Assembly (NCBI GenBank): GCA_951812655.1
Contig: OX638319.1
Coordinates: 1,589,620 to 1,653,619, forward strand
Length of the DNA: 64,000 nt
From: an uncultured Candidatus Nitrosopumilus sp.
GTDB lineage: Archaea; Thermoproteota; Nitrososphaeria; Nitrososphaerales; Nitrosopumilaceae
Direction: 5' to 3'
Part shown: positions 46,663-49,976 of the stretch, one piece after another
How the letters are laid out: the number at the start of each line of letters is the position of its first letter
Position numbering within the stretch: position 1 is the stretch's first letter
Notes under the pieces: model-generated
What the model saw: only the letters and a program-made list of their open reading frames with translations
Databases searched by the model: none
Told to the model about the DNA's origin: nothing
Made by a program: the position numbers and the translations under genes

Positions 46663-47418
46663 ATGACCTGGTACTACGATTCACACATACATCTGTCCGA
46701 TGATGCATACGCTTCCGACATGGATTCTATATCGAGACAAATGCAGTACCTCAAGATCAAAGCCTGCTGTGTATCTACAAACAACGAAAACTCAATTCGA
46801 ACTTTGGAGATGAGCAGAAAAAATGATCTGATTTTACCATTCATAGGAATTCATCCGGAATTCTCCAACGATGATCTTGAAACTATGACTGACCTAATCG
46901 AAGAGAATCGCCACGAAATTTCTGGAATTGGAGAAATTGGATTGGATCCGACTTATGAGGTTGAGGGCAGCGATCTTGCAAGGCAAAAGCATGTGTTTGA
47001 AACGATGCTGGATTTGGCTGAAAGATTAGACATGCCTGTCTCGATTCATTCAAGAAAAAGTCTGGATGATGTTTTTCAAACCATGACGTCCTATGACACA
47101 AAGCATGCGTTGCTTCACTGGTTTGACGGAAGTAAAAAACAGTTACAAAAAGCCATGGATATGGGATTCTTTGTATCATATGGCCCTGTCCTGGTATACG
47201 CAAATGACAAGCAAACACTGCTTTCCAAAACCGATGATTCAAGAATACTCGTTGAGACTGATGGTCCTGTAAGGTTTTCCAGATGCTTTGAAATGAAATC
47301 CGGGCAAGTCATCTTTATACCCAGTGTCATTTTTTGTGCTTCAAAAATTTTGAACAAGTCATTTGATGAAATGACATTGCTATTAGAATCGAATTCGAAA
47401 TCTTTTCTTGGAATATAG
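46663..47418 (+). CDS. TatD-family metal-dependent hydrolase
   Basis: The 251-residue protein follows the amidohydrolase TIM barrel: YDSHIHLSDDAY (first His pair), FIGIHPEFS, ISGIGEIGLDPTYE (metal Glu), MPVSIHSRKSLDDV (His), ALLHWFDGSKK (His) and the late ILVETDGPVRF (Asp). TatD proteins are DNases or related hydrolases. The first strand has a normal HxH. It ends a few bases before rps17e. Confidence 0.88.
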   Translation: MTWYYDSHIHLSDDAYASDMDSISRQMQYLKIKACCVSTNNENSIRTLEMSRKNDLILPFIGIHPEFSNDDLETMTDLIEENRHEISGIGEIGLDPTYEVEGSDLARQKHVFETMLDLAERLDMPVSIHSRKSLDDVFQTMTSYDTKHALLHWFDGSKKQLQKAMDMGFFVSYGPVLVYANDKQTLLSKTDDSRILVETDGPVRFSRCFEMKSGQVIFIPSVIFCASKILNKSFDEMTLLLESNSKSFLGI

Positions 47419-47449
47419 GTATAAAATACCCCCTTTCTTTAGACGACCA

Positions 47450-47902
47450 GTGGATAGAATAAAGCGATTAGCATTTGAGGTCATGGACGGGCACAAATCT
47501 AAGTTTGGTGAAGACTTTGCTGATAACAAAAAGTCCCTGAATCAGATTTCTATCATTCGTTCAAAGAGTCTAAAAAACAAAATTGCTGGCTATATCACCA
47601 AATTTATCAAAAAGGAAATTCGTGAAGAAAAAGCCAAGCAGGCCAGAATCGTGTCTTCTAGAACTGAACAGGTTGAGTTGGAGACTCCTGAATCAGCCGA
47701 AGAGGTCACCTTGACTAACGACGCACCTGAATCAGCCGAAGAGGTCACCTTGACTAACGACGCACCTGAATCAGCCGAAGAGGTCACCTTGACTAACGAC
47801 GCACCTGAATCAGCCGAAGAGGTCACCTTGACTAACGACGCACCTGAATCAGCCGAAGAGGTCACCTTGACTAACGAGTCTGATGAGCAAAAATCTGACT
47901 GA
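47450..47902 (+). CDS. rps17e: Ribosomal protein S17e with an acidic, repetitive C-terminal tail
   Basis: Residues 1-62 from GTG 47450 are S17e (DRIKRLAFEVMDGHKSKFGE, NQISIIRSKSLKNKIAGYIT). The GTG is supported by a TATA-like ATAAAATACC about 20-30 bases upstream. A TTG at 47408 would add 14 residues and overlap tatD. The C-terminal half is an acidic tail with five copies of a 13-residue unit (PESAEEVTLTNDA), almost perfect at the DNA level (39 bp). Such a tail is not part of S17e elsewhere. Confidence 0.88.
   Translation: MDRIKRLAFEVMDGHKSKFGEDFADNKKSLNQISIIRSKSLKNKIAGYITKFIKKEIREEKAKQARIVSSRTEQVELETPESAEEVTLTNDAPESAEEVTLTNDAPESAEEVTLTNDAPESAEEVTLTNDAPESAEEVTLTNESDEQKSD
47687..47878. repeat. 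Five tandem copies of a 39-bp unit inside rps17e
   Basis: Units start at 47687, 47726, 47765, 47804 and 47843; the first four are identical and the last is cut short. The period keeps the frame and codes 13 residues. Copy number is likely to vary between strains. Confidence 0.92.
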
Positions 47903-47945
47903 TAAATTTAATATTAATTTCTAAGTTTCAAGTTGATGTATAGAC

Positions 47946-48719
47946 ATGTTTACGGTGAAGTTTGTAGGAGGATCGAAGAAGTCTTTTCCTGCAGAATCTT
48001 TGAAAATTGACAAATCCTGGATATCTGTTCAAGAATTATTTGATCTACTATTGGATCTTAAGCCATCTGATACTCCAAAACTTGATACTGAGAATGTCTT
48101 GATTGCAATAAACGGTTCTGACTCGTCTGCAATGGACGGGACCTCCACAATAATTAAACACGATGATGTAGTCAGTATCATTCCTGTCATTCATGGTGGT
48201 TCGTCAAAAAAAATTACTTTTGAATATGCCAAAAAACAAATTCAGGCTATTGAGATCAAAGGCGAAAAGTCAATCAACGTTGAATTCATTGATCACCTTC
48301 GGAAAAAATACCCGAAACTCTTACTTCAGGCTGTCTCAAGTAGCTTTATCTTAAGCAAAAACCATTTGAAAAAAATTGTTTCACTGTCATTTGAGTCTAA
48401 AAAAAACAACGTTCTGCTTTCCAACAAATTCGAAATTGATCTTCTGATGCGATTTGCATTAAGCTCTCAAATTTCTCAAGCCATAAATCAAGCTGGAATA
48501 AAACCAAAATCCAATTTTGTCTTAATTGCGATTGGCACGAAAGCATCTTTGAATTCCTTGTATGATGAATTGTGCCCAATGACGGTACCGTTATTCTCGA
48601 AAAATAATGATTCCTATCTGAAAAGACATTTCAAGATAACAAAAAAACACATTGATTCGATCCAATCAAAAACTCCTTTGGAGGATATTTTGGTAGAAAA
48701 GGCCGCAATACTATTCTGA
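47946..48719 (+). CDS. Ubiquitin-like (MoaD/ThiS-type) domain fused to KEOPS subunit Cgi121
   Basis: Residues 1-85 look like a beta-grasp MoaD/ThiS domain (TVKFVGGSKKSF, VLIAINGSDS, HDDVVSIIPVIHGG), with the usual terminal Gly-Gly at 84-85 now internal. Residues about 88-257 match Cgi121 (TPRKB): FIDHLRKKYPKLLLQAVSS and LMRFALSSQISQAINQAGIK are characteristic. Cgi121 binds the 3' end of tRNA and positions it for N6-threonylcarbamoylation of A37. The fusion suggests a hydrolysable or fixed ubiquitin-like partner. Sua5, in the same pathway, lies at 49232. Confidence 0.75.
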   Translation: MFTVKFVGGSKKSFPAESLKIDKSWISVQELFDLLLDLKPSDTPKLDTENVLIAINGSDSSAMDGTSTIIKHDDVVSIIPVIHGGSSKKITFEYAKKQIQAIEIKGEKSINVEFIDHLRKKYPKLLLQAVSSSFILSKNHLKKIVSLSFESKKNNVLLSNKFEIDLLMRFALSSQISQAINQAGIKPKSNFVLIAIGTKASLNSLYDELCPMTVPLFSKNNDSYLKRHFKITKKHIDSIQSKTPLEDILVEKAAILF

Positions 48720-49235
48720 AATACTTCGTTTAGTTTTCTCAGTACTTAGTATGTCTTGTTTTCTAAGTATGGAAATTCCTGTTCTGCTACCCAAGATCTC
48801 AACTAAGATTATTTTGTCTGGGAAATCAAGGCTGACCTTGTTTTTTATCTTGTTTGCTATTCTTGTAATGATGTCATGACTTGACACGTTGGAATTTCTT
48901 TTCTCAATTAGTATTCTGTATGTTTCTCCCTCTGAAATTTCTTTGTCGAATTCAGAAACGCTCTTTTCAATCTCTTCTATTTTCGTTTCAACGACTTTAT
49001 GAATCGGTATCATCCTAAGGCAGTATCTTATGCTCCATGGCTCGTCTAGGAGCATTTCTCTGATCTTACACACGACGTCAATGGGATTCAGCTTTGTCTC
49101 AGCTGTGATGATTCCTGACATGTTTGAAATTGAGACTTTCACTTCTGAATCTCCGAGTTCGTCTAAGATGTCTCTGATTTCGTCCTCGGCATCAGGCTCA
49201 AAATGTCTGGCACATGTGATCATCAGGTTCATCAT
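48711..49235 (-). CDS. THUMP-domain RNA-binding protein
   Basis: The 174-residue protein is a THUMP domain with its lead-in: LMITCARHFEPDAEDEIRDI, then the core RILIEKRNSNVSSHDIITRI and KVSLDFPDKIILVEILGSRT. Alone it resembles Tan1, the adaptor for tRNA C12 acetylation. It starts with ATGATG overlapping the Sua5 stop, so the two are coupled. It is convergent with the Cgi121 fusion (9 bases overlap). Confidence 0.85.
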   Translation of the reverse strand: MMNLMITCARHFEPDAEDEIRDILDELGDSEVKVSISNMSGIITAETKLNPIDVVCKIREMLLDEPWSIRYCLRMIPIHKVVETKIEEIEKSVSEFDKEISEGETYRILIEKRNSNVSSHDIITRIANKIKNKVSLDFPDKIILVEILGSRTGISILRKQDILSTEKTKRSISE

Positions 49236-49834
49236 ATCGTAATTTCCTCTCTAGTCAAGCAACCTTCGCGAACAATCTTGATTTCTTCATTTTCTATCTC
49301 TATTATTGTCGACACCGCTTCACTAGTAATTGTTCCTCCGTCTACAAAAATATCGTAACCGTGCAAATTTCTGAAACATTCATCTGGATCTGTATATGGT
49401 ACACGACCGGAAATGTTTGCGCTGGTTCCTACAAGAAAACCACATTTCTCTAAAATCTTCAACGTGCACTTGTGATTTGGAACTCTTATTGCGATTTTAT
49501 CATCTAGATTTAATGATTCCTTCAAACTTTCATCTGTTAGCTTCATGATTATTGTCAATGGGCCTGGCCAAAACTTTTCGATAATTTTCTCAGTGAACTT
49601 GTTGATATGGCAAATTTTTTTTGCTGTTGCAATCGAATTTGTCAAAACTGGAACTGACTTAATGCTGTCCCTGGATTTAATTCTGTAAATTTTTTCTACC
49701 GCTTTTTTATTAAACGGATCACATCCAATTCCGTACACGGTATCTGTTGGAAATACGATTATTCCTCCATTTTTGATTATTTTGTTAGCTCTTTCGATTC
49801 CTGCATAACCACAGTCTACTTTCAATGTGCTCAT
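49232..49834 (-). CDS. Threonylcarbamoyl-AMP synthase (Sua5/YrdC)
   Basis: From ATG 49834 (MSTLKVDCGYAGIERANKII) the protein has 200 residues and the YrdC fold: GGIIVFPTDTVYGIGCDPFN, KSVPVLT, FWPGPLTIIMK, IAIRVPNHK and VGTSANISGRVP. It makes threonylcarbamoyl-AMP from Thr, bicarbonate and ATP, the donor for tRNA t6A. A frame from 49879 adds 15 less typical residues. It lacks the extra C-terminal Sua5 domain. Confidence 0.93.
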   Translation of the reverse strand: MSTLKVDCGYAGIERANKIIKNGGIIVFPTDTVYGIGCDPFNKKAVEKIYRIKSRDSIKSVPVLTNSIATAKKICHINKFTEKIIEKFWPGPLTIIMKLTDESLKESLNLDDKIAIRVPNHKCTLKILEKCGFLVGTSANISGRVPYTDPDECFRNLHGYDIFVDGGTITSEAVSTIIEIENEEIKIVREGCLTREEITI

Positions 49835-49976
49835 TGTTGATTTTGATTTGATGCAATTTATCTTAAATGATTTTTCCAAATTCTTGTGTCTAGTTTTTTA
49901 AAACGTGTGTGTTTGTGATGATTGTAATCATGTGATGTGGTGCTGATTTCTTTATTGAGGTTATATGTTCTGTTTG

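Follow-up and report, generated by a model that had tools for sequence, protein, structure and literature searches.

The fusion gene and its neighbours

The window, by which we mean the whole stretch of 64,000 nucleotides that was analysed, belongs to a genome assembled as a single contig of 1.67 Mb, and contains at positions 47946–48719 of the forward strand an open reading frame of 257 amino acids (aa) with an ATG start, which runs in one frame throughout and crosses the junction of its two halves without a stop codon or frameshift (Table 1). The first-pass annotation had read the first 85 residues as a ubiquitin-like (Ubl) beta-grasp domain of the MoaD/ThiS type ending in an internal Gly-Gly, and the second half as the KEOPS subunit Cgi121. 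Profile searches bore this out, with both halves above the Pfam cut-offs: residues 17–85 matched PF02597 (ThiS; E 4e-8, 34.1 bits versus a cut-off of 22.5) and residues 117–254 matched PF08617 (CGI-121; E 4.4e-6, 27.3 bits versus 25). The second half also matched NF011465 of NCBIfam (KEOPS complex subunit Cgi121; E 4.9e-45, 153.4 bits versus 40), and the sequence of the M. jannaschii Cgi121 structure was matched at E 6e-15 with a 12-sequence profile. The score against the SAMP1 equivalog NF041918 was 20.6 bits, below its cut-off of 60. The Gly-Gly lies at residues 84–85, as annotated, with 172 residues after it, and the encoded protein does not end in Gly-Gly as ThiS, MoaD and Urm1 do. Thirteen Nitrosopumilus-type loci from another collection share this 257-aa architecture, at 67–75% identity over the full length, and the fusion is therefore not an assembly artefact; the nearest relatives that bear a name are metagenome-assembled genomes of Nitrosopumilus.

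Table 1 Features of the fusion locus (positions are those of the window)
Feature	Position	Strand	Evidence
TatD-family nuclease, start of conserved row	46663–47418	+	PF01026, 1.8e-47
30S ribosomal protein S17e, next gene upstream	47408–47902	+	PF00833, 8.5e-17; NF002242, 2.6e-17
Ubl beta-grasp domain (ThiS/MoaD/Urm1 type), residues 1–85	47946–48200	+	PF02597, AF2, VIA, Foldseek
His83-Gly84-Gly85 codons (CAT GGT GGT), putative cleavage site and mature Ubl C-terminus	48192–48200	+	HGG conservation; HGG-stop of stand-alone orthologues
Short variable linker (residue 86 onward) and KEOPS subunit Cgi121 up to residue 257, with stop	48201–48719	+	PF08617, NF011465, MjCgi121 profile match, AF2
THUMP-domain protein, convergent, 9-base overlap with 3' end of fusion gene	48711–49235	-	PF02926, 9.7e-10
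Sua5/TsaC-type threonylcarbamoyl-AMP synthase, first t6A enzyme	49232–49879	-	PF01300, 1.3e-53; TIGR00057, 6.2e-51

The S17e gene and the fusion gene are probably co-transcribed. The TatD-S17e-Ubl-Cgi121 row facing THUMP and Sua5 (46663–49879 in the window, and related loci) is recognisable across families, in lineages with fused and with split genes alike, indicating that the gene row is older than the fusion. The product of Sua5 is the intermediate used by KEOPS, so that the neighbourhood concerns t6A and links both steps of its synthesis. The S17e gene itself ends at 47687–47877 in 4.9 perfect copies of a 39-bp repeat (13 aa, DAPESAEEVTLTN) that encode an acidic tail; its relatives have acidic tails of differing sequence, with near-identical repeats in one locus (L016) and repeats of its own in another (L014).

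Predicted structure of both halves

For the full-length fusion, AF2 gave a model of mediocre quality (pLDDT 58, pTM 0.42), and the Cgi121 half was therefore modelled separately; how the two domains are placed relative to each other cannot be read from these models. The N-terminal model has strands at residues 2–6, 18–21, 51–55, 69–71 and 75–80 and a helix at 28–38. Its residues 1–84 aligned with the structures of MoaD, Urm1 and SAMP1 at VIA Z values of 7–9.4 (rmsd 2.3–3.3 over 72–85 residues), and Urm1 and SAMP1 took the top ranks in Foldseek. Residues 85–257, modelled alone, reached a pLDDT of 70.6; their first 17 structure matches were all Cgi121 or TPRKB (Z 12.9 to 6.8, the best being 3.4 Å over 157 residues), followed by an unrelated entry at 3.9. 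Structure prediction, which the first-pass annotation had set as the test able to overturn it, thus returned a beta-grasp fold for the N-terminal half and Cgi121 for the C-terminal half. Gly84-Gly85 falls within a low-confidence stretch (residues 82–87) between the last beta-grasp strand and the first Cgi121 strand, and this stretch is probably flexible, as judged from the model.

MjCgi121 is reported to contact the CCA end of tRNA through Gln28, Lys56, Met60, Gln71, Ile72, Ile76 and Gly80 (PMC7718258). Five of these seven residues are identical in the fusion protein (Gln128, Gln175, Ile176, Ile180 and Gly184, corresponding to Gln28, Gln71, Ile72, Ile76 and Gly80, respectively), while Met60 is replaced by Ile164 and Lys56 by Asn160, with Lys161 adjoining; Phe21 could not be aligned.

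Constraint on the junction

All 86 distinct fusions that were compared carry HGG at the junction, and since 15 of the 16 possible Gly-Gly codon pairs occur among them, this constancy acts at the amino-acid level. Only 12 of the 257 alignment columns have zero entropy (11 at a fill of at least 95%), and H83, G84 and G85 make up three of them; the residues invariant in the 86 fusions include G8, N56 and D74 of the Ubl core as well as the HGG. The average column of the Nitrosopumilaceae clade has undergone about 28.7 expected substitutions. Directly after the Gly-Gly, columns 86–91 (positions +1 to +6) have entropies of 2.0–3.2 bits versus a median of 1.6, and the residues there differ among the fusions in kind and in number. 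Such invariance of HGG, judging from these alignments, is not what one would expect of a simple spacer.

Distribution, repeated fusion and fission

A search of 400 genomes of the class was followed by a search for Cgi121 in 80 genomes picked across its families, with reading of the flanking DNA. The Ubl–Cgi121 fusion is the architecture of the Nitrosopumilaceae (family f1), whereas nearly all other families have a separate Ubl gene of about 80–90 codons, which usually lies on the same strand as cgi121, either directly before it or overlapping it. Twenty-seven of these non-fused Ubl frames end exactly at HGG-stop, and about ten carry one to six extra residues, as in HGGS-stop, HGGCI-stop and HGGMVGV-stop. 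In three genomes of family f3 (L074, L077 and L083) no Ubl was found within about 1.2–1.5 kb of cgi121. A further locus (L081, 276–1133) has an HGG Ubl of the same kind fused to a phosphoribosyltransferase-like sequence, as assigned by eye from motifs, and a separate cgi121 comes directly after it.

Besides the Nitrosopumilaceae, the fused state is present in one genus of f3 (L055) and in f22/f24 (L064, L094 and L103). On a tree of 101 concatenated Ubl and Cgi121 sequences, which is a quick tree with some long branches, at least five changes between fused and split are required, four of them forced by well-supported branches, suggesting three or more origins of the Ubl–Cgi121 fusion and two natural fissions. 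Both putative fissions are nested in the Nitrosopumilaceae. One (L140) has a TGA after HGG-Ala and then at once a possible TTG start (about 1028–1032), and in the other (L141) the frames are shifted and the ATG of Cgi121 overlaps the HGG codons (about 1283–1323); both stem from draft genomes, where a sequencing error is possible.

Other genes of the Ubl system and KEOPS

With profiles built from 20 Ubl domains and searched at E up to 10, the 24 closed Nitrosopumilaceae genomes each yielded two credible Ubl domains and no more, both of them fused, one to Cgi121 and the other to an E1 enzyme, in a count that rests on sequence profiles and that a very divergent Ubl could escape. The Ubl-E1 fusions of these genomes are about 440–500 aa long, with 814 aa in one open frame. 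In 110 good genomes searched with PF02597, mostly the same two Ubls were found, the few exceptions including the fissions and one MoaD-MoaE fusion. Genome G138 has a MoaD-MoaE-like fusion as an extra Ubl protein, joined at SGG (L143, 595–1272). For the genome of the window, a third, free Ubl was sought with the 20-domain profile at E up to 10, and only the two fused ones were returned. The Nitrosopumilaceae therefore seem, at the level of these profiles, to encode no free-standing Ubl.

TIGR01687 gave weak extra matches, at E 0.02 and above. Two such candidates for a free Ubl in the genome of the window were rejected: a 68-aa frame belongs to a conserved, helical-looking protein of 66–73 aa without Gly-Gly, and a second weak match lies inside a protein of 259 aa. 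The small protein of 66–73 aa, probably helical and with a weak match to the archaeal MoaD profile, occurs in several loci (L156, 1037–1240; L157, 763–966; L158, 700–897; L159, 667–885).

A single ThiF-family E1 of 480 aa is encoded in the genome of the window (PF00899, 249.5 bits versus a cut-off of 28.1). It matches NF047750 (UbaA) at 1.1e-65, yet below the cut-off of that model, and contains adenylation and cysteine motifs (GTGGLGNP, SNLHRQ, MPTCS and CxxC). This protein, too, begins with a Ubl, which is joined to the E1 part at an internal PAVAGG, and its gene adjoins a threonine/cysteine-synthase-like gene (L002; G000:C1, about 310900–312200). A Ubl-E1 fusion of Thaumarchaeota has already been described (PMC2948915), and a MoaD-MoeB fusion was reported in 61 of 98 Thaumarchaeota assemblies (PMC11237513). 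Since a Gly-Gly inside a protein lacks a free carboxylate, the E1 needs either cleavage of a precursor or a Ubl that is invisible to profiles.

The same genome encodes two JAMM proteins with an intact HSHP...D (HxHx10D) motif, whose nearest NCBIfam model is desampylase, with scores below its cut-off, as well as an NcsA/TtuA-type tRNA thiolase, LarE, and the KEOPS subunits Kae1 (TIGR03722, 4.9e-123) and Bud32 (TIGR03724, 9.1e-63). Among sampled genomes outside the Nitrosopumilaceae, a JAMM match was present in all 13 with residues after the Ubl Gly-Gly and also in 25 of the 27 with exact HGG-stop; the two that lacked a JAMM match (G165 and G173) both have a Ubl ending exactly at HGG-stop. JAMM genes are nearly universal in the class, and their presence consequently discriminates little on the matter of processing. 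No JAMM was found in four draft Nitrosopumilaceae genomes, three of which carry the fusion; as these drafts are 81–91% complete, this weighs little against processing.

A precursor model and its rivals

Taking these observations together, we consider it rather probable that the product of the gene is a precursor in fused form, which a JAMM protease cuts after Gly85 to yield a free Ubl and Cgi121. Comparison of loci shows that the fusion formed by loss of the stop between two genes of the TatD-S17e-Ubl-Cgi121 row that were neighbours beforehand. A JAMM/MPN+ metalloprotease would then cut the translated protein after Gly85, and the freed 85-aa Ubl, ending in HGG, would be adenylated by the single E1, itself a Ubl-E1 fusion. 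It would then carry sulfur, in all likelihood to tRNA 2-thiolation of the NcsA type, and/or be used to tag proteins. The freed Cgi121 would join Bud32, Kae1 and Pcc1 and hold the CCA end of tRNA in t6A synthesis, in keeping with known Cgi121 biology and the conserved contact residues, and the fusion may secure equal output of both tRNA-modification parts. A role of the Ubl in thiamine synthesis (ThiS) was judged less likely, since ammonia-oxidising Thaumarchaeota are reported to have a THI4 with an active-site cysteine (PMC4215014).

The invariance of HGG, the stand-alone orthologues that end in HGG-stop, the occurrence of the Ubls in fused form only and the JAMM genes can be read as support for such processing, and the case for the fusion being a precursor is stronger than before. 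Release of a free modifier after Gly85, as proposed in the first-pass annotation, is thus supported indirectly, by these features and by the failure to find a free Ubl in the genome, while the cleavage itself we infer rather than observe. There is precedent for the reaction, as HvJAMM1 cleaves SAMP1-MoaE in vivo (PMC4443979), DRJAMM cleaves a natural MoaD-MoaE (PMC8832034), and CsJAMM of Caldiarchaeum, which has been given Csub_C0702 as a substrate, cleaves SAMP precursors (PMC6043591). A wider version, in which all Nitrosopumilaceae Ubls are N-terminal precursors, on E1 and on Cgi121, and an obligatory JAMM cleavage feeds the whole Ubl/sulfur relay in a fixed ratio to t6A, is plausible, with slightly less than an even chance in our judgement.

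The main rival is a permanent two-domain KEOPS subunit, in which the uncut Ubl would dock or regulate KEOPS with E1, NcsA, JAMM or the ribosome and HGG would be a hinge or binding motif. The stability of the fusion across one whole family and the conserved gene order with S17e and Sua5 fit this arrangement, and co-ordination of KEOPS with the Ubl system has been raised before (Makarova & Koonin, PMC2948915); a Gly-Gly hinge could also be conserved for some other reason. However, the Ubl orthologues of other families are free proteins with the same HGG at the C-terminus, the two fissions within the fused family imply that the linkage is dispensable, and what follows the Gly-Gly differs in both the type and the number of residues. 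An invariant HGG is also more than a hinge alone would require, and no free substrate would remain for the E1. We therefore regard a permanent subunit as unlikely. That KEOPS and the Ubl system stay physically linked, as the first-pass annotation envisaged, found no positive support, and processing would undo such a link.

Less probable still is a regulated partial processing, in which cut and uncut forms coexist and cutting switches KEOPS, for instance with the Ubl masking the CCA-binding or Bud32 surface of Cgi121. The linear SAMP1-MoaE is inhibited and is reactivated by HvJAMM1 (PMC4443979), and in the predicted structure the junction directly precedes the first Cgi121 strand, which would suit such a switch, but the natural fissions would abolish it. 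That the fusion is a neutral product of chance stop loss, with a vestigial or roleless Ubl, would agree with its several origins from adjacent or overlapping genes, where fusion by chance is easy; the strong constraint on the Ubl core and HGG in the 86 fusions already disfavours it, and we consider it very improbable. Programmed -1 frameshifting was rejected as the least probable reading of all. An A8 run, TC-AAAAAAAA-TT, does follow the Gly-Gly in the window (TCA AAA AAA ATT), and the -1 frame soon reaches a stop, which would give two products, one of them a Ubl ending a few codons on; the run is, however, not conserved, as relatives have AAA AGA, AAG AAA, GAA AAA or no lysines there.

Comparison with known systems

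A connection between two universal tRNA-modification pathways, t6A synthesis and Ubl-dependent thiolation, is a rare sight. Should the fusion be a precursor, very common marine microbes would produce all their Ubls in linked precursor form, in a manner close to that of eukaryotic ubiquitin, and JAMM proteases would be required maturases and not just removers of tags; for specialists, the interest lies in the idea that the Nitrosopumilaceae may have no free Ubl at all. In eukaryotic fusions of ubiquitin with ribosomal proteins, an N-terminal modifier is likewise carried on a protein of the translation system and is released after Gly-Gly, although the families and the proteases are different and the processing is here a proposed one.

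The fusion itself is already known, having been published in 2010 by Makarova and Koonin, who found it in all thaumarchaeal genomes then available, noted the linkage to S17e and proposed a link between KEOPS and SAMPs (PMC2948915), the only report on a Ubl–Cgi121 fusion that we found in the open-licence literature. Theirs is the same fusion in the same group, with S17e as its neighbour in Nitrosopumilus; in our sample, by contrast, it is largely confined to the Nitrosopumilaceae, with separate origins elsewhere and two genes in most other families. New with respect to that study are the invariant HGG, the stand-alone forms ending in HGG-stop, the fissions and the finding that no free Ubl can be detected. 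The SAMP precursors of Caldiarchaeum, an archaeon of related affiliation, resemble the fusion in their C-terminal extension, which is there processed by JAMM (PMC6043591). MoaD-MoaE fusions share with it a MoaD-type Ubl and an internal Gly-Gly that stands before the partner enzyme and is exposed there by a JAMM cut (PMC4443979, PMC8832034), whereas the partner here, reached by a putative cut, is a tRNA-modification subunit without known sulfur chemistry and not a user of the sulfur that the Ubl carries.
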